Source of the DNA: Tabrizicola aquatica
GTDB lineage: Bacteria; Pseudomonadota; Alphaproteobacteria; Rhodobacterales; Rhodobacteraceae
Length of the DNA stretch: 64,000 nt
Assembly: GCF_002900975.1 (NCBI RefSeq)
Contig: NZ_PJON01000002.1
Location: 124,001 to 188,000 of the forward strand
Reading direction: 5' to 3'
Shown here: piece by piece, positions 32,478 through 41,960 of the stretch
Layout: every line of letters starts with the position of its first letter
How positions within the stretch are numbered: the first letter of the stretch is position 1
Position numbers and translations under genes: made by a program
The notes under the pieces: model-generated
Told to the model about the DNA's origin: nothing
What the model saw: only the letters and a program-made list of their open reading frames with translations
Database searches by the model: none

Positions 32478-33070
32478 TTCAAACCCCACCCTTCAATCGT
32501 TGCACGCGGGCAAAACTGCCTGCGCGTCGCACCTTCTTGTGACGGGCCTTCAAGTGCCCGTTGAGGTGCCGTGTCCGATCATGGCCCCCTTAAAAACCTT
32601 GCAAGCAGCGACACGAGGGGGGGCCGACAACCTTATACAATCATTTACCATTTCTCGAATTTGTCAATGTTAAGCCACAATTGGTCTTGTTTTAGCCATA
32701 TTCCGGGGTCGTTCCGCGAAATCTGGTCCAAACGGCACCCAATCCGGGAATTGGCCCACAATTAGCGGTTGCGCGGTATTCATTCCCCACCATCTAAGGC
32801 TTCAATCTGTCACGAATCAACCGGCCAGTCGCACGGGGCAGCCATCCCGCCGGCGCGGCCCGCCACATTCTTTCCACTTTTTGGCCGCGCTTGCCGCACG
32901 CGTGCGGGCCGCAGCCGGTCGGTGTGGGGTCGGGCATTCTCTGCTTGGCGAGCGTGGGCAGTTGCGGCAAGACTTGTGCCGTTGGCTGCCGGCGAAAAAT
33001 CCTGCGGCAAGATGATGTAATTCCCCGTCACATTACTATGTGCAGGGACAAATGGTCACAGGAGGGCGCG
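32478..33070. promoter_or_regulatory. AT-rich divergent promoter region between the polysaccharide operon and the unknown operon
   Basis: 593 nt without a gene I can support. The middle (about 32620-32720) is clearly AT-richer than the rest of the window. On the minus strand a perfect -35 TTGACA (32667-32662) points at the UDP-xylose synthase gene; a weak -10 (ATGATT) sits 17 nt further. Two related motifs, CCACAATTGG near 32675 and CCACAATTAG near 32756, lie about 80 nt apart and could bind a regulator. On the plus strand a GGAGGG at 33061 precedes the coiled-coil gene. Confidence 0.5.
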
Positions 33071-34141
33071 ATGGCCGATTTCGAGACGCAGATCAAGGAG
33101 AGCCAGGCTCAGGTCGCCGAGGCGCAGGCGAAGATCAGCGCGATCACTAGCCGGATCGAGGCCGCGCGGACCAAGCTGGACCAGGGCGTGCAGCTGGACG
33201 TGGAAAACGCCACGCTGGATGATGTGTCGAAGCACACCGACCTGATGAACGCGAACATCGCCGAGCTGATCATGGGCCTGGACGACGTGACCGCGGGTTT
33301 CTCGACCGAATTTGCCGAGATGCGGTCAAAGACGGGAATGGAGACCTTCATCGGCATCTTCTCGTCCGCGAAGGCCGAGTCGATGCGGCAAGAGCGGATG
33401 CGTGCGGCCACGATCGATGACAAGCTGCAGGACCTGATCTCGAAATCGGACGTGATCGTGAAGCTGCTGCAAGGGCAGCTCGACCTTCTGAACACGCAAA
33501 AGACGCGGGTCGAAGGGAACCTTGCCGGCACCCTGACCGAGCGGGAAGAGACCGTCGCGGCACTGGAGGCGGTGCGCCGGGAAGTCGCCAGCCTAGATCC
33601 AAAGATCATCGAGCTGGAGAACAAGATCAGCGTCGAGCAGGACGCGGCGGCGCGGACCAAGCTGGAGACGGAGCTTGCCAACCTGAACGCGCAATACAAC
33701 GCGCTGGTGCAGGACGAGCAGGTGAAACTGGCGAAGTCCCAGACGCTGGAGCGCTATATCGAGAAGGGGAAGACTTGGGTCGACAGCCTTCAGAACCAGG
33801 CGGCGACGCAGCTGGTGCTGATCAACAAGCTGCAGACGGACACCAAGCAGCGGGTGGTGCTGTATGATGCGCTGACCTCCAGCCTCAAGACCGCCCAGCA
33901 GCAGGACGTGGCGCACCGGATCAACGAGATCGGTGTCAAAACCGACCAGGAAGCCCAGACCGCGATGGCGGCGATTGGCGCTGCGACCAACGACAAGATG
34001 GCCGACATGCTGGAAGCGCATGAGGGGCATATGGTGTTCGCGCGGCAGATCCTGGAGCAGAAGGCGAAGGCGGATGAACGCTTTGCCCGGCGCTTTGCCT
34101 CGATTGTCGAGAAGCACGACAAGAACGCGTACGGGGAATGA
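33071..34141 (+). CDS. coiled-coil protein, first gene of the unknown ten-gene operon (weakly TelA-like)
   Basis: 356 residues from the ATG at 33071 with GGAGGG 4 nt upstream. Almost the whole protein is predicted helical with heptad-like repeats: AQVAEAQAKISAITSRIEAA, EREETVAALEAVRREVASLD, LETELANLNAQYNAL. The C-terminal part (LVLINKLQTDTKQRVVLYDALTSSLK) faintly recalls TelA/KlaA-type toxic-anion-resistance proteins, but I would not assign it to that family by eye. No signal peptide or membrane span is visible. It overlaps the next gene by ATGA. A scaffold for the AAA+ ATPase of this operon is a reasonable guess. Confidence 0.85.
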   Translation: MADFETQIKESQAQVAEAQAKISAITSRIEAARTKLDQGVQLDVENATLDDVSKHTDLMNANIAELIMGLDDVTAGFSTEFAEMRSKTGMETFIGIFSSAKAESMRQERMRAATIDDKLQDLISKSDVIVKLLQGQLDLLNTQKTRVEGNLAGTLTEREETVAALEAVRREVASLDPKIIELENKISVEQDAAARTKLETELANLNAQYNALVQDEQVKLAKSQTLERYIEKGKTWVDSLQNQAATQLVLINKLQTDTKQRVVLYDALTSSLKTAQQQDVAHRINEIGVKTDQEAQTAMAAIGAATNDKMADMLEAHEGHMVFARQILEQKAKADERFARRFASIVEKHDKNAYGE

Positions 34142-34458
34142 GGTTTAGGCGTCAGGTGCGCTGGGCCCTGACGCGCGGGATCGCGGCGATATTGCTGGGA
34201 GTTTGCCTTGCCTTTGTGACCGTAATCTTCGAGCTGTATGGTCACCGGATTGCGCAACAGGTTAGCGGGATCATGACTGTCGCCTTGATCTCGGGCGGGG
34301 CACTGATGGCTTTGCTTGGCGGGGCGGCGCGGATGGGACAGCATTGGATGTTTTTGCGCGGGATGCCTGCCGGGCGGCTTCGCAGCTTAGTGCTGCGCCA
34401 TCCGGTTTTGCGGTGGTGGTATGGGGTCGATTGCGATGGGCAGGCGGTAGATGACTGA
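34138..34458 (+). CDS. small membrane protein of the unknown operon
   Basis: 106 residues starting in the ATGA overlap with the coiled-coil gene. Basic N terminus (MRFRRQVRWALTRG), then two hydrophobic segments (about residues 13-32 and 45-65), and a basic C-terminal part. No family recognised. The 8-nt overlap with the next gene and the 4-nt overlap with the previous one show it is part of the operon. Confidence 0.8.
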   Translation: MRFRRQVRWALTRGIAAILLGVCLAFVTVIFELYGHRIAQQVSGIMTVALISGGALMALLGGAARMGQHWMFLRGMPAGRLRSLVLRHPVLRWWYGVDCDGQAVDD

Positions 34459-35578
34459 CAGAACCGTCAAGGACCAGCTTACCTCGGACCATCACGAGCT
34501 TTACGACACACTCGTCGCGAGGCGCTACTTTGCCAAGTTCGACCGGATCACCGGGCATCTGGGCCGGGTGGCGGCGGAGATGGAGAATGAGGGAAAGCTG
34601 ACGCGGACCGAGGCTCGGCTGCTCGGGGTCTACCTCAAGGCGGTGGCGACGACGTTCCGGGCGTTGAACCACAAGTACCTGATGACGGGGCGGGGGGAGA
34701 CGGCCCCGCGCCTGACCATCGACCGGCATGAGAGCGGGTTTCCGGTGGCTCAGGAACTCATGACGATGGCCGTCGATGCCCAGCAGGCCGAGAAGCATCT
34801 GGCCGGGATGCCGTCCGAGACGGAACTGAAGGACCGGATGGTGCGGCAGATCGTGGGGGATCAGGTGATCCCGACCGCGCTGCAATTCGCGCTGTCGCAG
34901 CGGTATTACTATGAGGCGCTGGCGGCGGGGGGCATGTTCTGGGCGCGGAATGATCCGGATGCGCAGTGGATCGAGGATCTGGGTTCGCGGCGGCATTTCC
35001 TGGTGCATTGGGCGGTCTGGGACACGCAGGTCAACCTGCCGGTGGTCTACCTGATGGACCTGGAGGACAGTGGCAAACGGCCGATCCTGAACGACGCCTA
35101 CCGCTGGCCGCAGGCTCAGGCTGCGCTGATGGCGCAGTCGGTGGGTGGGTTGAAGCTGCTGACGATTGCGACGGGGTTCGACAAGGATTTCGCGGACCTG
35201 CATCCGAAACGGCTGCGGCGGGTGATCCTGGGGCCGATGTATTCGTCCAGTTTCACGTTGCAGTCGGGGCCGATTTCCAAGGTGCTGGAGGGCGCGAAGG
35301 CACCCGAAGGGCAGGATTGGGCGCTGGTCTGGACGGTCGAGGACCTGATCTCGGACCGCGAGGAAGAGGTGAAGGACGGCTGGTTCTCGTCGGTCCAGCG
35401 GCAGGTCTACAAGCTGGACCCGGTGGCGGGTGTTGAGTTGGGGGCGACGCGGCAGGACCGGATGATCATCCTGCCGGAGAAGCCCTATCAGGTGTTGGTC
35501 GAACAGAACCCGCGCGGGCTGCAGGGGCTGCGGAAGTTCGTCGTGGGGGCCGGGGGGCGGCTTATTCCGACGTTGTAG
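34451..35578 (+). CDS. conserved unknown protein of the operon, 375 residues
   Basis: 375 residues with no signal peptide or clear membrane span. The N-terminal third is helical and charged (HHELYDTLVARRYFAKFDRI, RTEARLLGVYLKAVATTFRA). The rest is mixed, with RRHFLVHWAVWDTQVNLPVVYLMDLED (in parts) suggesting an alpha/beta domain, and DWALVWTVEDLISDREEEVKDGWF. I recognise no domain. It begins inside the preceding gene and is followed by a hairpin element (35579) before the AAA+ gene, so a partial transcription break in mid-operon is possible. Confidence 0.85.
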   Translation: MTDRTVKDQLTSDHHELYDTLVARRYFAKFDRITGHLGRVAAEMENEGKLTRTEARLLGVYLKAVATTFRALNHKYLMTGRGETAPRLTIDRHESGFPVAQELMTMAVDAQQAEKHLAGMPSETELKDRMVRQIVGDQVIPTALQFALSQRYYYEALAAGGMFWARNDPDAQWIEDLGSRRHFLVHWAVWDTQVNLPVVYLMDLEDSGKRPILNDAYRWPQAQAALMAQSVGGLKLLTIATGFDKDFADLHPKRLRRVILGPMYSSSFTLQSGPISKVLEGAKAPEGQDWALVWTVEDLISDREEEVKDGWFSSVQRQVYKLDPVAGVELGATRQDRMIILPEKPYQVLVEQNPRGLQGLRKFVVGAGGRLIPTL

Positions 35579-35624
35579 CCGGGGGCCAGCCCCCGGACCC
35601 CCGGGATATTCTCAGACAGAAAAT
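35579..35624 (+). repeat. hairpin + GGGATATTY element, copy 1 (inside the operon)
   Basis: Stem CCGGGGGC/GCCCCCGG (35579-35596), then ACCCCCGGGATATTCTC and AGACAGAAAATG. The same arrangement is seen at 62438-62481 (plus) and at 50490-50436 (minus), each time directly downstream of a gene in the same direction. Here it lies between two genes of one apparent operon, which suggests attenuation or a processing site. Confidence 0.7.
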
Positions 35625-35633
35625 GAGGGTTTC

Positions 35634-37562
35634 ATGAACACGCGCGACACGATGGAGCTGAAGGAAGAGACGATCCGGGCGCAATATGAGGCGGCCTTGG
35701 GGATGGTCTTTGGCTTCGATCACGCGCCGCGGTTGGCGAAGCCCTTGGTGGTGGCTGCAGTGGCGGAGCGGTCGCCCGGCGTGGGGACGCGGCCGACGTT
35801 CCGGTCGACGGTGCCGGGGATGGCGACGCGGACGACCGCGCGGCCCGGCGGGGTGCGGCTGGCAGAGCGGGTCGAGGGGTTGGGGGATGGGCTGGTCTCG
35901 CCGGTACAGGCGGCGGTGCTGAACGCGCTGCGGCGATCCTTGGCGATTGCGCTGGCGATGGGGGAGACGTTCTCGGCGCAATCGGGGCTGGCGGAGTTAA
36001 AGCGGGCGAACCTGGAGGGGCGGGTGCCGGAACCCCGGCGCGCCGAATTTGGGGAGTTGCTGGCGGGTGAGGCGCTGGTGGTCTTGTTCACCTTCGGCAA
36101 TGCGCTGGCCTATCTGATCGCGCCGCATGTGGGGACCACGACGGTCGAGTTGGGCGAGGTGGAGGAGGTTCTGACCGACAATGCTCCGCTGGCCTTGCAG
36201 GGGGCCTTGTGGGAGCTGGATCAGGACATCGGGGCGCTGGCGACCGACGATGTGAAGCTGGTGGCAGTGGTGTCGGCCTTTGCCGAGGCGCTGATGAAGA
36301 AGGTGCAGATCCGGGCGGAGAATGGGGCGCGGACTTCTGTCTTTACGGGTGGAAGCTGGAAGGTGGAGGCGGATGGGCTGACGCTGTCGGGGTTCAAGCC
36401 GGCCAAGGCTGCGAAGGGTGGCATGATCGCCATGGCCTTCAAGAAGCCGCATGAGGTGGTGGGGAACCACATCGCCAAGTACCAGTCGCTGCGGCTGTCG
36501 AAGATGCTGATGGCCTATGACTTCGAACGCCGCCTGAACCCGTTCGCGGAATTGGGCGGGTTCATCTTCACCTTTATGGGGGATGGGAAGCCGGGGACGG
36601 GGAAGACCACGCTGATCCAGATGATGGCGGGGTTGCTGAACGATTACTGCAAGGTGGCGGGGTATCCGTTCCGGTATCAGAACTTCTCGATCGACCAGAT
36701 CGACAGCTATCAGGGCAAGTCGGGGCAGAACGCGAAGGCGTTCATCGACGCGGTACTGGACCCCTCGGTCATCGGGTTCGGGACCATCGACGATATCGAC
36801 CAGGTGGCGGGGAAGCGGGGGGACCGGCAGTCCTCGGCTGGCCAGCAAGAGGTGACGGCGGTCTTCATGCAGGCCTTTGCAGGGGCGGGGACGGTGGTGC
36901 GGGGGAACTGCACGTTTGGCATGTTCTCGAACTATCCGGAGAACGTGGACGACGCCCTGCGCCAGCGGGCCGGGGCGCGGTTTCTGGTCGACGGGCCGCA
37001 GTCGAAGGAGGATTACATTGATATCCTCTCGCTTCTCTTGGGGAAGAACCATGCGATCCCGGTGGGGGAGCATGATCTGTTCGCGGCGCAGGAGATCAAG
37101 AAGGCTGTGGCCGCGTCCTTTGAGGGGCATTCGAAGCCGCATGAGGAGGGGTTGCTGAAGGTCTGGGACCGGGTGTCGGGTAAGATTGGGAAGCTGGATA
37201 CCCTCGCCAAGATGGGGGCCTACCTGAAAGCGATCCAAGAGGCGGATGAGCGGTTCACGGGCCGGGCGATCAAGAACATCACCGATGCGGTGAAGGTCCG
37301 GGCGATGGACTTTGAACTGCCGGATGAGTGGATGGATCAGCCGGACCTCTTCCTCTTCAAGCCCTATGACGAGAAGCTGGCGATGATCCGGGGGCTGATG
37401 ACGCCGATCTCGGTGGAGATGGTGATCCAGGAAATCAACCGCTACGCCGACAGCGAGTTCCGCTATGCCGACAAGTCGGACGAGGTGGCCATCGAGGCGA
37501 TGGTGCGCGACTTTGGCCGGACGGAAGAGGCGAAGCGGCGATATCTGGAGGGGAAGGGGTGA
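35634..37562 (+). CDS. AAA+ ATPase of the unknown operon
   Basis: 642 residues. The first 290 residues have no recognised domain. A AAA module follows: Walker A GDGKPGTGKTT (residues 316-326), Walker B-like VIGFGTIDDIDQV with Asp386-Asp387, and DDALRQRAGARF, a likely sensor/arginine-finger region. The C-terminal 150 residues are helical. The Walker A has an inserted KP before GTGKTT, slightly unusual. It should act as a ring-forming remodelling ATPase. The nearest partners by context are the coiled-coil protein and the DUF6638 protein. Start chosen at ATG 35634. Confidence 0.9.
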   Translation: MNTRDTMELKEETIRAQYEAALGMVFGFDHAPRLAKPLVVAAVAERSPGVGTRPTFRSTVPGMATRTTARPGGVRLAERVEGLGDGLVSPVQAAVLNALRRSLAIALAMGETFSAQSGLAELKRANLEGRVPEPRRAEFGELLAGEALVVLFTFGNALAYLIAPHVGTTTVELGEVEEVLTDNAPLALQGALWELDQDIGALATDDVKLVAVVSAFAEALMKKVQIRAENGARTSVFTGGSWKVEADGLTLSGFKPAKAAKGGMIAMAFKKPHEVVGNHIAKYQSLRLSKMLMAYDFERRLNPFAELGGFIFTFMGDGKPGTGKTTLIQMMAGLLNDYCKVAGYPFRYQNFSIDQIDSYQGKSGQNAKAFIDAVLDPSVIGFGTIDDIDQVAGKRGDRQSSAGQQEVTAVFMQAFAGAGTVVRGNCTFGMFSNYPENVDDALRQRAGARFLVDGPQSKEDYIDILSLLLGKNHAIPVGEHDLFAAQEIKKAVAASFEGHSKPHEEGLLKVWDRVSGKIGKLDTLAKMGAYLKAIQEADERFTGRAIKNITDAVKVRAMDFELPDEWMDQPDLFLFKPYDEKLAMIRGLMTPISVEMVIQEINRYADSEFRYADKSDEVAIEAMVRDFGRTEEAKRRYLEGKG

Positions 37563-37584
37563 GGCCCGCTCAAGGAAGGCTTCG

Positions 37585-37917
37585 ATGACCTGCGCCTCGG
37601 CGTTGTTTCAGCATGTCGGCCTCTTGGCGGGCAGCGGTCTGGCAATCGTCGTGGGGCCCTGGCTGTTGGTCAAGCTTGCCGCGTCTGGCGGTTGGCGGTT
37701 TGTCTTGGCGCTGGTGCTGGGGTGGGGGCTCGCTTCCGGTGTTGTCGTCCTTGCGGTGCTTGGGGTGCTGGCCGCGCGTTCGGCACGAAGCGGAACTCCG
37801 GAATGCGCGTGGTCCGACCTGATCGCCAGCCTGTGGTATATGTCGGTTGCTGGTCTTTTCATTTCTGTGCTGCTCACCATGGTCATCCGGCGGCGCGCCA
37901 GACGGAAGAGCGAATGA
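37585..37917 (+). CDS. small three-helix membrane protein of the unknown operon
   Basis: 110 residues from the ATG at 37585, preceded by AAGGAAG. Three hydrophobic segments (about residues 10-30, 38-64 and 80-102) and a basic C-terminal tail (RRRARRKSE) suggest an inner-membrane protein with its tail in the cytoplasm. It overlaps the next gene by ATGA. No family recognised. Confidence 0.78.
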   Translation: MTCASALFQHVGLLAGSGLAIVVGPWLLVKLAASGGWRFVLALVLGWGLASGVVVLAVLGVLAARSARSGTPECAWSDLIASLWYMSVAGLFISVLLTMVIRRRARRKSE

Positions 37918-38294
37918 ACGAGCCACTGACCCTGTGGAATTCGATCCTGCCCCTGGCGGGGTTGTGCGCGCTGGTGGCCTGGCTGCCGGGGTGGGTCGCG
38001 GGGCGGGGGAACCTGTCGCAGGCGAGGCTTTCGCGGGCGGTGGGGGTGACGGCGGTGGTGGCGCTGGGCGTGGGGGCCGTGCTGACGGCGGGGCTTTATG
38101 CGGCGATCAACGAGGGGGTCTGGGCAGGGGTTCTGGCGGCTCCGCTGGAGCGGGCGGGGTTCTTCCTGGGCCGTTCGGCGTTGTTTGCGCTGCTGTGGGG
38201 TCCGGTGCTGGGGTTCGTCTGGCTGGTGAAAGCGCAGGAGCTGAACCGGCGGTTGGGGATGCGGATGGTGGATGGTGAAGGGGGGAAGGGGTGA
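37914..38294 (+). CDS. second three-helix membrane protein of the unknown operon
   Basis: 126 residues. Hydrophobic segments at about residues 9-30, 42-65 and 80-105 are followed by a cytoplasmic-looking tail (KAQELNRRLGMRMVDGEGGKG). The stop codon TGA is part of GTGA at 38291-38294, which is also the start of the following low-GC gene. Before that gene was inserted, the same GTGA would have overlapped the DUF6638 start, as argued in the findings. Confidence 0.78.
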   Translation: MNEPLTLWNSILPLAGLCALVAWLPGWVAGRGNLSQARLSRAVGVTAVVALGVGAVLTAGLYAAINEGVWAGVLAAPLERAGFFLGRSALFALLWGPVLGFVWLVKAQELNRRLGMRMVDGEGGKG

Positions 38295-38956
38295 TTAAAC
38301 GAAACAAAGATTTTACCGAGAGCGCAACAGAGTTCTGGCTTACCAGTTTCTTAATTCTGTTTACCAATCTTGCGGCGACGGCCGAACCTTTGTCGGCCGA
38401 GAAGTTCCATGAGCTAGTTTACATGGACGACGGAGTGTCTCTTCCTGAGCTGATAAACTGTTCCGCGGTTAGCTTGGAAGCACCGGCGCTGCCAATTTGG
38501 TGCCGAGTCGGCGGCATAGAAATTCACTTGGAAAACAACGTAGTAAACGGAGTGAATTTGGGAGAGATATTCGGAGAGGTATCCATGGATGCAATTTGGA
38601 CCGCTGTGGAGAGCGATCAAACTGATATGCTTCCACTTAAATTCCTTGATTGGAACTTCGATGTAAAGGAGACATGGTCTTACTCTGATGACAGCCGAAA
38701 TGTATTCTGTTCTTTTGGCGGCCCATCGAAAGAAGAATCGGGATTTGGCGTTCCAACGCTTCAAACCGCCCGTTGTTTTCAGTTTATCGAAGGAAGCTAT
38801 CTGAATCCTGGACAACGAATGCTCAAGACTACGTTCTACGATCTTGGAGATCTCTCTTTAATGGGTGCAAATACGCCAACCGATTTGACACTTTTCAAGA
38901 GTGTTGTCGTGTTTGTGGCACTGACTACCCGAATTGAACTTCGCAGTGAGAAGTAA
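38291..38956 (+). CDS. low-GC gene for a secreted protein, inserted into the operon
   Basis: 221 residues from a GTG at 38291. Base composition and codon use differ sharply from everything around it: by eye roughly 40-45% GC, with many AAA, GAT and TTA codons. A signal peptide (hydrophobic residues about 16-31, cleavage near ATA-EP) precedes a 190-residue mature part with four cysteines (NCS, WCR, FCS, RCF) that could form two disulfides. No family recognised. GTGA occurs at both borders. The composition points to recent horizontal acquisition. Confidence 0.82.
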   Translation: MIKRNKDFTESATEFWLTSFLILFTNLAATAEPLSAEKFHELVYMDDGVSLPELINCSAVSLEAPALPIWCRVGGIEIHLENNVVNGVNLGEIFGEVSMDAIWTAVESDQTDMLPLKFLDWNFDVKETWSYSDDSRNVFCSFGGPSKEESGFGVPTLQTARCFQFIEGSYLNPGQRMLKTTFYDLGDLSLMGANTPTDLTLFKSVVVFVALTTRIELRSEK

Positions 38957-40318
38957 GTGAAACGCCTCATCCAACGCGGTCTCATGTTCGGGAACCTGAT
39001 CGAGGTTTCCTCTCCCGCCCTTGTCGAGCGCTACAACCGGGCGCTCAAGCATCTTACCAGCAAGACCACGAAGCTTGACGATTTCCACATCGACCTGTCC
39101 GGCTATTCGCCCGAGATTGGCGACGAATTAAACGACGACCTCTACCTCAACCCCAACGGGGCGAACCGGCAGTTCATCTTGCTGACAACGGCGCAGAAGG
39201 ATGCGCCTTTGCTGAACATCAAGTTCTCCACCAGCCGGGGGATCCTGACGCAGTTCATCGAGAAGAACGAGGCGCAGTTGTTTGCCCTGACCGCGCGGGA
39301 TGCGGTGGCGGGGGAGTTGCAGAACTCGGTCTACGCGTTCGACACGCCGGCCAAGCTGTTCGACATCCGGCAGGTGACGGTCGAGGCGGATACGATCGGC
39401 GGGCATGTGGCGGATGCGGGGAAGCTGGCGAAGCTGATCGAGCGGTTCCGGGTTGAGCCGGACGGCTGGCGCGATGATGTGCTGGTAGCGGAGATGATTG
39501 GCCTTGCCAAGAAGACGGGCGACGTGACGCGGGTGCCGATCAGCCTTCCGGCGATGACGTTCCAGCAGCAGAACTTCTGGACCAGCCATTTCGGCGGGGT
39601 CTACATCTTTCAGGGCGTGCGCTATCCGGCGGCGATCTCGACGCTGGACTGGAAAAGCCTGGGCGAGGTGCCGGTGGCGCAGGTGATGGACCTGGACCAC
39701 CGCAACCAGATCGCCGACTGGCTGGAGCGGAACGGGCTGGTGGAACCCATCGTGCAGGCGCGGGGGACGGATGCCTCGGCCATCCTGCGGCAGAAGATGG
39801 ATTTCATCCTGGTCGATGCGGCGGACCGGCTGGGGATCGAGGTCGGGGATGCGCGACGGACGGAACTGCGGAAGGTGGCCTACAAGCTGGGCACCTCGTT
39901 GCCCGAGGAGTTTCTGGGGCTAGCCGCCCTCCTCCGCTGGGTCGAGGCCGGGGGGGCCTGGCCGAAGATCACCTCGGAGCATCCGGCCTATTTCTACACG
40001 CTCCGCGGCAAGGGGCCGGACCGCGACCTGGTGAACATGCTTCTGTCCGAACTCTCTCCGATGGACGTGCGGCAGATGTTCATCACCCACAAGGAGCTGT
40101 TCTACGCCCAGTACGCCACGTGGTCCGACCGCAAGAAAACCTATGTGGCGGACTTCCTGGCGCGGGAGTATCAGGTGGACCGTGAGGGCGCGCGGACAGC
40201 GCTGTTCGGGCCGGAACCGTCGATGGACGAACTCCATCGGCCGCAGATGGCGGAAGGCCCCAAACCGGCGCGCCGAACGGTGGTCGGCCCCTGGGGCGCA
40301 ACTGGAGGGCGGCGATGA
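38957..40318 (+). CDS. DUF6638 family protein
   Basis: 453 residues from a GTG at 38957, directly after the TAA of the inserted gene; an ATG 24 nt later is an alternative start. The N terminus (MKRLIQRGLMFGNLIEVSSP read with GTG as Met) and LVERYNRALKHLTSKTT resemble a conserved Rhodobacterales family that I believe is DUF6638. ILVDAADRLGIEVGDARRTELRK and KKTYVADFLAREYQVDREGARTAL, in parts, are helical and charged. No membrane span. Its steady company with the AAA+ gene suggests a substrate or adaptor. Function unknown. Confidence 0.8.
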   Translation: MKRLIQRGLMFGNLIEVSSPALVERYNRALKHLTSKTTKLDDFHIDLSGYSPEIGDELNDDLYLNPNGANRQFILLTTAQKDAPLLNIKFSTSRGILTQFIEKNEAQLFALTARDAVAGELQNSVYAFDTPAKLFDIRQVTVEADTIGGHVADAGKLAKLIERFRVEPDGWRDDVLVAEMIGLAKKTGDVTRVPISLPAMTFQQQNFWTSHFGGVYIFQGVRYPAAISTLDWKSLGEVPVAQVMDLDHRNQIADWLERNGLVEPIVQARGTDASAILRQKMDFILVDAADRLGIEVGDARRTELRKVAYKLGTSLPEEFLGLAALLRWVEAGGAWPKITSEHPAYFYTLRGKGPDRDLVNMLLSELSPMDVRQMFITHKELFYAQYATWSDRKKTYVADFLAREYQVDREGARTALFGPEPSMDELHRPQMAEGPKPARRTVVGPWGATGGRR

Positions 40319-40587
40319 TCGGATTTCTGCGCGCCATCGTGATCTGGGCCGTGGTGGGTGCCGTGGCCTATTTCGTGCTGCGGATCTATGCCCGCTCGCT
40401 GCGCCGCGAGGCGCTGGAGAGGGAATGGGACGCCGCCCCCAAGGGCGATGCCGTGGCGCGGGAGGCGTTCATCGACAAGGGCATGGCCGAATATGAGGGC
40501 AGCCTGCGAAACCGGCTGCTGGTCATTATCTTCGTCCTGCCTTTCATCGCGATCGCGGTGCTCCTATATCTGGTCAATTACGCATGA
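40315..40587 (+). CDS. small two-helix membrane protein of the unknown operon
   Basis: 90 residues starting in an ATGA overlap with the DUF6638 gene. Hydrophobic segments at about residues 5-25 and 66-88 enclose a charged, helical middle (SLRREALEREWDAAPKGDAV), suggesting a hairpin with a cytoplasmic loop. No family recognised. Separated by 7 nt from the DUF1523 gene. Confidence 0.78.
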   Translation: MIGFLRAIVIWAVVGAVAYFVLRIYARSLRREALEREWDAAPKGDAVAREAFIDKGMAEYEGSLRNRLLVIIFVLPFIAIAVLLYLVNYA

Positions 40588-40594
40588 GGCCGCG

Positions 40595-41263
40595 ATGCGA
40601 TACGTGAAATGGGCTTTCTGGGGCACGCTTGCCCTGATCATCGGGCTGTTCCTGCACTATACGCTGCCGCAGCATGACGTGGTGCGGGTCGTCGGCACCT
40701 ATCAGGAACGCCAGGACCTGAACGACTGGACGCGGATCTTCTGGTCCTCGCCGGACGACCAGTCCACGGCCCTGACCAACCGGGACGTGCAGTTCATCCA
40801 GACCGTGCTGGCCAGTGGCGGGGTGATGGTCTACCGGAACGAGGACACGGGCTGGAGCTGGCCGCCCTATTTCAAGTTCGACACGGCCAGCCTGCAGACC
40901 GAGGCGGACGACCTCCGCTCGACCGCCGAGGCCCCCAAATGGGCCGTGGTCACGCATTACGGCTGGCGGAACGAGTTGATCTCAAGCTTCCCCAACGCCG
41001 TTGGGATCCGCTCTGTCGAGGGGCCGGATGTCACCATCATCCCTTGGTTCAACATCTTCTTCTTCGGCTTCCTGCTGATCCTGGCCGTGCTGATCCGCAA
41101 GATGTGGCTGCAATTCCGCGAACGGATGATCGACCCTGCGCTGGCGGATGCGGGCGAGGCCTGGGATTCGGTCGAGGCCCGCGCCGAGACCGCCCGCAAG
41201 GGCGCGCGCGGGTTCTTTGGGCGGATCGGGGCCTGGCTGAACACCTGGCGGGCGAAGAAGTAG
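40595..41263 (+). CDS. DUF1523 family membrane protein
   Basis: 222 residues from the ATG at 40595. N-terminal membrane segment (WGTLALIIGLFLHYTLPQHD), a periplasmic-looking domain of about 130 residues (VVRVVGTYQERQDL, WRNELISSFPNAVGIRSVEG), then a second membrane segment (IIPWFNIFFFGFLLILAVLI) and a basic C-terminal helix. The pattern matches DUF1523 proteins of Rhodobacteraceae. It is the last gene of the ten-gene operon. Confidence 0.83.
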   Translation: MRYVKWAFWGTLALIIGLFLHYTLPQHDVVRVVGTYQERQDLNDWTRIFWSSPDDQSTALTNRDVQFIQTVLASGGVMVYRNEDTGWSWPPYFKFDTASLQTEADDLRSTAEAPKWAVVTHYGWRNELISSFPNAVGIRSVEGPDVTIIPWFNIFFFGFLLILAVLIRKMWLQFRERMIDPALADAGEAWDSVEARAETARKGARGFFGRIGAWLNTWRAKK

Positions 41264-41315: not shown

Positions 41316-41960
41316 ATGCGAGACGACCTGACCCCCGGCGCGCGGTTTCCTGACTTCGTGCTGCCCGATCACACCAAGACCCAGCGTCGCCTGTCGGACC
41401 TGCAAGGCGACCAGCTGATGGTCATCTTCCTGACCCGCGGTTTCTTCTGCCCCAAGGACCGTGCCCAGATGCACGAACTGGTGCGCTTTCACCCGCAACT
41501 GGTGGTCGGGTATACCCAGGTGGTCACCATCACCACCGACGACTGGCACATCACCAACAACTACCGCCAGCAGACCGGCGCGCCCTGGCCGTTCCTTTAC
41601 GACGAGGAAAGGGTAATTCAGAAGGATCTGGACATCAAGGAATACACCGACACCACGCATGACGTGATGATCCCGCACACGATCGTGCTGGGCCGGGGGC
41701 TGAAGGTCCACAAGATCTACAACGGCTATTACTACTGGGGCCGCCCCTCGACCGCCGAATTGCACGCCGACCTGCGCGACGTGGCGCGGCAGACCTATCC
41801 GGACTGGGACATCACCCGCCCCGAGATGCGGCAGAAGTGGGAGAAGGGCGAGACGTCCAGCTTCTATCCCTATTCCAACGAAAGTATCTCGATGGAGACG
41901 CTGATGCTGCAGATGGCCGGGGCCGTGGACCAGTACGCCGGAGAGGCGAAGGGGGAGTGA
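41316..41960 (+). CDS. redoxin-domain (AhpC/TSA-like) protein
   Basis: 214 residues. The thioredoxin-fold start (LTPGARFPDFVLPDHTKTQR, then LSDLQGDQLMVIFLTRGFFCP) has a single conserved cysteine in GFFCPKDRAQ at the peroxidatic position. No resolving Cys is obvious. The last 60 residues form an extension (YPDWDITRPEMRQKWEKGE). It is probably a peroxiredoxin-like protein or a close relative without peroxidase activity. It begins 52 nt after the DUF1523 gene and converges with pheT; membership of the upstream operon is uncertain. Confidence 0.85.
   Translation: MRDDLTPGARFPDFVLPDHTKTQRRLSDLQGDQLMVIFLTRGFFCPKDRAQMHELVRFHPQLVVGYTQVVTITTDDWHITNNYRQQTGAPWPFLYDEERVIQKDLDIKEYTDTTHDVMIPHTIVLGRGLKVHKIYNGYYYWGRPSTAELHADLRDVARQTYPDWDITRPEMRQKWEKGETSSFYPYSNESISMETLMLQMAGAVDQYAGEAKGE

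Follow-up and report, generated by a model that had tools for sequence, protein, structure and literature searches.

A conserved AAA ATPase operon of Tabrizicola aquatica with a gene-precise, fast-turning and partly immune-effector-type cargo slot

The window analysed here, a 64,000-nucleotide stretch of the Tabrizicola aquatica genome (G000 in our numbering; window coordinates G000:C5:124001-188000), holds a run of ten open reading frames (ORFs), designated A to J, all located on the + strand between positions 33071 and 41263. Comparison with related loci shows that the conserved unit is a six-gene core, A, C, D, H, I and J, and that B, E, F and G are passengers occupying two variable slots, one between A and C and the other between D and H. 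A new and stronger finding concerns the second slot, which is placed directly after the gene of the AAA ATPase D within a conserved operon: it is a gene-precise, fast-turning and partly immune-effector-type cargo slot. This hypervariable region had been missed in the initial annotation of the DNA. The locus is best explained as an AAA remodelling chassis associated with exchangeable, partly defence-like cargo, whose use would most likely lie in defence or genetic conflict, a reading to which a probability of roughly 0.45 is assigned. It draws on a co-conserved core, the AAA motifs of D, the exchange of cargo at gene boundaries, the low GC content of most sampled cargo and the presence of effector-type domains in part of it.

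The core genes can be briefly described as follows. A (33071..34141, + strand) encodes a 356-aa all-helical coiled-coil protein and C (34451..35578, +) a 375-aa protein of mixed alpha/beta structure, both without known family according to hidden Markov model (HMM) searches and structure models. D (35634..37562, +) encodes a classical AAA ATPase of 642 aa whose N-terminal region of about 300 residues belongs to no known family (Pfam, alignment). H (38957..40318, +) encodes a 453-aa DUF6638 protein. I (40315..40587, +), a core gene in the named Rhodobacterales-type loci (73 of 80), encodes a 90-aa protein with probably two transmembrane (TM) helices as judged from its sequence, and J (40595..41263, +), a core gene in most loci, a 222-aa DUF1523 protein whose probable periplasmic domain has one hydrophobic segment close to either end. 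An ORF list check returned the ten ORFs with the coordinates and strand initially reported, and the overlaps of 4-8 nt attributed to most junctions were measured at five of the nine, with 4 or 8 nt each. From A to J the junctions are, in order, -4, -8, +55, +22, -4, -4, 0, -4 and +7 nt, leaving gaps of 55 nt between C and D and of 22 nt between D and E. The family assignments made for three of the products were confirmed using Pfam: AAA for D (7.8e-12), DUF6638 for H (5.7e-207; PF20343, 688 bits for a cut-off of 27) and DUF1523 for J (4.2e-71; PF07509, 238 bits for a cut-off of 23). The Pfam cut-off was reached by none of A, B, C, E, F, G and I. The NCBIfam scan of the ten proteins gave no match near any cut-off, and the PHROGs scan returned just the AAA stretch of D together with weak helical matches.

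Conservation of the core was assessed in two sets of loci, namely 20 first-fetched relatives selected for having D or DUF6638, and 80 named loci, which are the best 80 of the 545 confirmed stretches obtained by a profile search with D. The same search placed the nearest named relatives of the window in Tabrizicola. Using tblastn, A, C, D and H were found to be adjacent in all of the 20 first-fetched relatives, with J in 16 and I in 14 of them. HMM searches of the 80 named loci detected A in 77, C in 78, H in 75, and I and J in 73 each, and the order and strand of A-C-D-H-I-J are identical in 71 of the 71 loci holding all six genes; this arrangement of the core is not a product of chance. Nine named loci are incomplete, seven of which are truncated by a contig end. 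Single-sequence HMMs for B, E, F and G identified these genes in 4, 0, 7 and 0 of the 80 loci, respectively. The ten-gene operon proposed in the initial annotation thus stands as far as its six core genes are concerned and must be reduced by its four passengers. In a sample of 398 genomes from the phylum, 26 have DUF6638, and the genomes with full-length A (E<=1e-160) are the identical 26; five further genomes show weaker or partial A-like matches alone. Three divergent A-like proteins from one genus (L196, L197 and L198, in genomes G388, G191 and G252) were also seen, in the vicinity of which C, D and H were not detected.

The distribution of the operon is patchy. Of 149 genomes in the order, 89 have D, several genera comprising both carrier and non-carrier species. 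In a broad class sample D was found in 5 of 289 genomes, four of these five belonging to the family of the window. One of the 89 genomes, G123, retains just decayed pieces of A, C, D and H within a single stretch (L202, G123:C52:15000-33000). In the plasmid collection, D was also found in Sinorhizobium, Shinella, Rhizobium and Vibrio (10 records). Carriers of the operon among culture-collection strains include Defluviimonas denitrificans DSM 18921 (L107) and Pseudosulfitobacter pseudonitzschiae DSM 26824 (L155). The single Vibrio locus examined consists of the four-gene set A-C-D-H, with a D protein 42% identical, and in the single Sinorhizobium meliloti locus examined all four of these genes are present, D being separated from H by two others; the core genes of both loci were confirmed by HMM. 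J (DUF1523) was found in G706 as well. A viral origin was rejected, as no relative of D was found among viral contigs or phage records at the thresholds used. The 3' end of the operon (I, J) seems to be mosaic or fast-evolving, as suggested by sequence identities. L081, L082, L083 and L085 match the window at 92-97% identity in D and H but at only 38-44% in I and 54-63% in J; in another relative, L086, the values are 80% for I and 84% for J.

Gaps of at least 150 nt are encountered between A and C in 41 of 77 loci and between D and H in 67 of 75, compared with 6 of 78 between C and D, and the junctions further downstream are tight, not exceeding 60 nt in 71 of 73 loci for H-I and in 73 of 73 for I-J. 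In the window, the D-H slot extends from the D stop to the H start (37563..38956, + strand) and contains E, F and G. In 39 of the 67 filled D-H slots, there is a 4-nt overlap between the D stop and an ORF of 60 aa or more. Over all loci, such a 4-nt ORF overlap is observed at the D stop in 41 of 77 cases, at the A stop in 22 of 77 and at the J stop in 3 of 72. The largest ORF of the D-H slot lies on the operon strand in 50 of 63 loci. The ORFs of both slots, which were called mechanically and some of which may be spurious, fall into small clusters (the largest having 13 members) and 59 singletons.

Turnover of the cargo is rapid and respects gene boundaries. The window and five relatives whose D proteins are 93-97% identical (L081, L082, L083, L085 and L086) carry six cargo genes that are mutually unmatched at E<=1e-3; a further relative, L084 (D 93% identical), was left out of this comparison because its H was not found. 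When the largest + strand slot ORF of each locus was compared in pairs, a cargo family was common to both members in 2 of the 65 pairs in which D reaches an identity of 92% or more. At the DNA level, homology between the window and L081, L082, L085 and L086 stops in all four cases with the last base of D or one base later (37562 or 37563) and returns in all four at 38955-38958, the start codon of H, the F gene forming an extra block of homology that ends at 38295 in L081 and L082. Cargo turnover at gene boundaries is established by these data and is gene-precise. Of 16 cargo genes picked by hand, 15 have a GC content lower than that of D and also lower than that of H. In the case of G, the GC content amounts to 46% versus 64% for D and H, and the view of G as an inserted gene was well founded. 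No homologue of G was found in the collections searched, including plasmids and viral contigs.

In order to characterize the cargo, 20 proteins were picked by hand from the 46 ORFs of 150 aa or more that lie in D-H slots, spurious-looking ORFs and most family repeats being omitted. Pfam matches above cut-off include TIR_2 (1.5e-27, L088 of Rhodobacter sp. SGA-6-6), SLFN_AlbA_2 (3.8e-12, L085), AbiJ_NTD4 (8.4e-9, L147), an RNase_T exonuclease (8.7e-14, L081), DUF2971 (1.5e-5, L128), DUF433 (L109) and DUF559 (4.2e-31, L110), the last of these families recurring in the S. meliloti cargo. Weak Pfam matches were obtained with HATPase (L145) and with a CAP12-type TIR (L082). A PADLOC match at E<=0.001 was returned for 6 of the 20 proteins (L145, L081, L088, L082, L106 and L128) and for none of 10 control ORFs randomly drawn 3' of the operon, eight of which are genes by Pfam and two unproven as such. 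With the AbiJ and Schlafen proteins added, immune-effector-type cargo amounts to 8 of 20 compared with 0 of 10 controls, for a one-sided p of 0.02 that is to be taken only as a guide, like the other p value given below, because the cargo was chosen by hand. The L146 cargo and G look secreted, by their hydrophobic N-termini alone.

The ATPase D matches Pfam AAA (PF00004) over residues 318-451 with 46.2 bits for a cut-off of 21.2. Several motifs are invariant in all 20 aligned D sequences: the Walker A stretch GDGxPGTGKT (316-325), the pore-loop-like S358-Y359-Q360-G361 contained in S-Y-Q-G-K-S (358-363), and R443, R445 and R449, which are candidate arginine fingers. The nearest solved chains are the ATPase domain of an i-AAA protease (4.5e-6), fidgetin-like 1 (2.6e-4), katanin (4.5e-4) and Vps4 (5.4e-4), and no M41 metalloprotease domain was matched in D by Pfam. 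Given this similarity and the lack of a detected protease domain, D most likely forms a ring that threads or remodels a partner protein without proteolysis.

On this basis the following mechanism is proposed. The chassis would be formed by A, C, D and H, completed, in the majority of the alphaproteobacterial copies seen, by the membrane subunits I and J, through which it may be attached to the membrane. The helical-hairpin protein A would be the best candidate for a substrate or scaffold of the D ring. The slot directly 3' of the ATPase gene would receive exchangeable and usually translationally coupled cargo, part of it of immune-effector type, and the chassis could sense or answer damage and act together with whichever effector occupies the slot. 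A more specific version, considered possible but short of probable, is that the locus represents a new immune class: A, C and H would detect, or be marked by, a signal of infection or damage, and remodelling by the D ring would then license any effector present in the slot. The licensed effectors would comprise TIR, Schlafen/AlbA, AbiJ-N, exonuclease and HEPN-like proteins as well as small membrane or secreted proteins, and their replacement would proceed gene by gene on the time scale of species.

A candidate operator was identified upstream of A. In the window it is the inverted repeat ATGTAA-N7-TCACAT (33015..33033, + strand), with one mismatch to ATGTWA-N7-TWACAT. Within the 150 nt that precede A, 46 of 98 loci carry the exact pattern TGTWA-N7-TWACA, which did not occur in any of 20 shuffle rounds for that spacer, and no TGTWA/TWACA pair with another spacer of 3 to 12 nt was found upstream of A. 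The window copy, on account of its mismatch, is not counted among the 46. Part of the remaining loci have a best match with one or two mismatches and the rest have more; no convincing copy was present upstream of A in L061-L068. Genome-wide, the pattern was found as one site each in 14 of 38 genomes, and 12 of the 14 sites are upstream of A by coordinates. Of the two stray sites, the one in G106 is located upstream of a gene for a DUF2852 protein, and no DUF2852 gene was found at the one in G062. Of 61 genomes, 60 possess the DUF2852 gene itself; in 28 of 30 loci tested, an ATGTWA-N7-TWACAT element with no more than one mismatch precedes it. A pair of the stricter form ATGTRAA-N5-TTYACAT, 57-59 nt apart, was found at DUF2852 in 25 of 36 genomes of the family, and a CTTG element lies 3' of one operator copy in 31 of 36, the two copies flanking it. 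This element resembles the -35 box of a heat-shock sigma factor. In the window genome, the DUF2852 gene (L349) has operators at G000:C1:514947-514965 and 515006-515024, 59 nt apart and flanking CTTGAA.

Several candidate regulators, PadR among them, were considered. Of the published sites, the CenR motif TGA-N8-TGA of R. sphaeroides (PMC9275681), the CenK-CenR repeat of S. meliloti (PMC9561847) and the proposed NtrX site GCA-N9-TGC (PMC7240162) do not fit the operator. DUF2852 is mentioned in PMC6377625 and PMC6515984.

A number of observations weigh against a defence chassis with exchangeable effectors and have to be considered together. The D-H gap is shorter than 150 nt in 8 of 73 loci, seven of which also have an empty A-C slot, and D-H cargo is absent from the Vibrio locus and from G198, G397 and G706; the core would consequently have a use of its own, or the cargo can act from elsewhere. 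Two of the 80 named loci (L084 and L148) have D without H despite the presence of about 5 kb 3' of D. As many as 12 of the 20 scanned cargo proteins lack an effector-type domain, DUF559 and DUF433 not being counted as such, and the PADLOC result taken alone (6 of 20 versus 0 of 10) is not significant, with a one-sided p of 0.065. No core protein specifically matches the 5027 models of PADLOC-DB 2.0.0: C, H, I and J gave no match, and the weak matches of D to TRIP13 (2.1e-4) and IetA (1.2e-3) are confined to the AAA stretch, A matching REase_II at 0.014. In the ten control loci, those neighbours of the operon to which Pfam gives a name are ordinary genes rather than a defence island (two for FlgI, two for aldehyde dehydrogenase, and one each for SelB, a MIP channel, a sigma factor and a pectate-lyase-like protein). 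In D itself, the invariant D386-D387-x-D389 has Asp rather than Glu as the second Walker B acid. The operator common to A and DUF2852 points to envelope or protein stress. Finally, the D-H slot may be a passive landing place.

The last point leads to an alternative explanation, in which the core would be a housekeeping or stress machine and the gap 3' of D a well-expressed, tolerated site where mobile defence genes and other mobile genes settle and are swapped by recombination and do no joint work with the core. Because the core occurs without D-H cargo, as in the empty-slot loci mentioned above, this explanation is regarded as quite possible. It would also account for the mixed nature of the cargo, which ranges from TIR proteins to 3-TM proteins and to DUF559 and DUF433 proteins, and for traces of recombination in 2 of 67 slots. 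In L086, the initial 60 nt of H recur in degenerate form (48 of 60 identical) about 448 nt after the D stop and before a DUF559-type cargo, as if the cargo had arrived with a duplicated H start, and in L160 the final 60 nt of D recur within the slot (53 of 60 identical). The D-H slot of S. meliloti Ak57 (L352, 11046-12791) is composed of a DUF559 gene and an IS4-family transposase gene, which is in keeping with the same explanation. However, mere tolerance would require neither the 4-nt coupling to the D stop, so much more frequent than at the J stop, nor the prevalence of the operon strand among the largest slot ORFs, and the slot keeps an identical position across genera while the H-I and I-J junctions stay tight.

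A second alternative is an envelope or protein-quality stress machine, in which D would pull on a polymer of A or on I/J and the operon would be derepressed together with DUF2852 under stress. The operator link to the conserved DUF2852 membrane protein, with copies upstream of A and of DUF2852 and flanking the CTTG element, would be the main support for such a role, and the membrane-like character of I and J, the similarity of D to classical AAA remodellers and the long helical hairpin modelled for A are consistent with it. A membrane or envelope-stress role, via I/J and the DUF2852-type operator, is accordingly possible, and the initial annotation had suggested a similar one. As a complete explanation it is nevertheless judged unlikely: the patchy presence in 89 of 149 genomes and the joint decay of A, C, D and H in G123 would be unusual for envelope housekeeping, DUF2852 is near universal and the operon is not, I and J were not detected in L063-L066, and the annotated gene 3' of H in the Vibrio locus is mfd.

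The folds of the core proteins were examined with regard to possible known relatives. Searches of Protein Data Bank profiles with A, C and H gave chance-level matches alone. The AlphaFold2 model of A (pLDDT 73.8) is all-helical, with a long hairpin (115-188/192-288), and the protein has a conserved C-terminal tail. The top Foldseek matches listed for this model are AhlB, MakA and XaxB, ClyA-type alpha-pore-forming proteins, with E >= 2e-3 and query TM-scores of at most 0.41. Structural matches with Z <= 12.3 belong to generic helical bundles and include syntaxins, and a ClyA-type or syntaxin kinship by fold was rejected on that account. For an ESCRT-III/PspA-like fold there is the long hairpin at the model confidence given above and solely generic helical matches; ESCRT-III and PspA are not among the Foldseek matches listed for A, which excludes nothing. 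The model of C is of higher quality (pLDDT 89.0, pTM 0.87). It gave no Foldseek match at E<=0.001 (best E 0.61), and its T-fold-type matches (urate oxidase, dihydroneopterin aldolase and others) reach a Z of 5.7 at best and were not accepted as evidence of kinship. C and H showed no detectable relation in a profile-profile comparison (probability 0.3%). Of the structure predictions called for by the initial annotation, those of A and C yielded no clear match to a known fold.

The resemblance of A to TelA, from which a relationship to Ter-type tellurite or toxic-anion resistance could have been derived, was not supported: A is rich in helix and, compared by hhalign with a diverse set of TelA sequences, aligns colinearly along 167 columns (P 0.0016) and scores well above reversed alignments, but the probability is 16%, an equal score is attained by 3 of 60 TelA alignments after block shuffling, A does not match Pfam TelA (PF05816) at E<=1, no Ter family is matched by Pfam among the ten proteins and the true TelA gene lies on another contig (G000:C6:262445-263437), making this relationship highly improbable. 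A TelA query against solved structures returned generic helical matches, with no TelA named among the best 60 of 111.

The passengers of the window are all encoded on the + strand. B (34138..34458), in the A-C slot, is a 106-aa protein with two hydrophobic segments and belongs to a slot cluster of 7 that includes the window copy. E (37585..37917; 110 aa) is a membrane protein by hydropathy and has no relative among the slot ORFs. F (37914..38294; 126 aa) has three hydrophobic segments and is a member of the largest slot cluster, made of 12 slot ORFs and F itself. G (38291..38956; 221 aa) has an N-terminal hydrophobic segment. Another cargo cluster, of ten slot ORFs, mostly shows two hydrophobic segments. 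Membrane calls were based on a simple hydropathy count for B, E and F, and on the sequence for I and J. An AhpC/TSA-type thioredoxin-fold gene is located 52 nt 3' of J (41316-41960 of the window); since it was not found in any of the 80 loci with a single-sequence HMM, it is hardly part of the system.

The expectation that these genes could form an undescribed system has been borne out, in that an AAA+-centred and co-conserved set was found which is not described in the libraries searched. Among the papers listed in the open-access literature searched, none names DUF6638 and four name DUF1523, no function in print having been found for either family, and the operon is not described as a system in the libraries and open-access papers searched. 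The locus is thus apparently undescribed as a modular system. A, C and DUF6638, three conserved families without function, are now placed in a shared context and connected with an operator and with an AAA engine open to testing. The D-H slot constitutes a natural collection point: a survey of its contents over a large number of genomes would supply candidates for immune effectors, with synteny and coupling having done the sorting beforehand. Should the core license effectors, a new modular defence principle would result; otherwise, the locus clearly exemplifies the gene-precise exchange of cargo within an operon that is itself conserved.

Comparison with known systems can be made at three levels. 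The D protein resembles Vps4, katanin and fidgetin as well as FtsH and i-AAA in its AAA module, Walker A, Y-Q-G and C-terminal arginine positions. It differs from them in its N-terminal region, in a Walker B of Asp-Asp instead of Asp-Glu, in its operon partners, which belong to families without known function (PF20343 for H and PF07509 for J among them), and, as regards FtsH and i-AAA, in the M41 protease domain, which was not found in D. The ClyA-type alpha-pore-forming proteins provide the top helical matches of the A model; the scores are weak and A, in contrast to these proteins, is encoded alongside an AAA ATPase. Lastly, systems with exchangeable effectors are already known as a kind, the core families found here being those that the libraries searched leave unexplained. 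CBASS and Lamassu are modular bacterial immune systems with exchangeable effectors. The present locus differs from such systems in that its cargo is optional and its core is without specific PADLOC match. Like them, it combines a conserved core with interchangeable effector-type genes and a patchy distribution.

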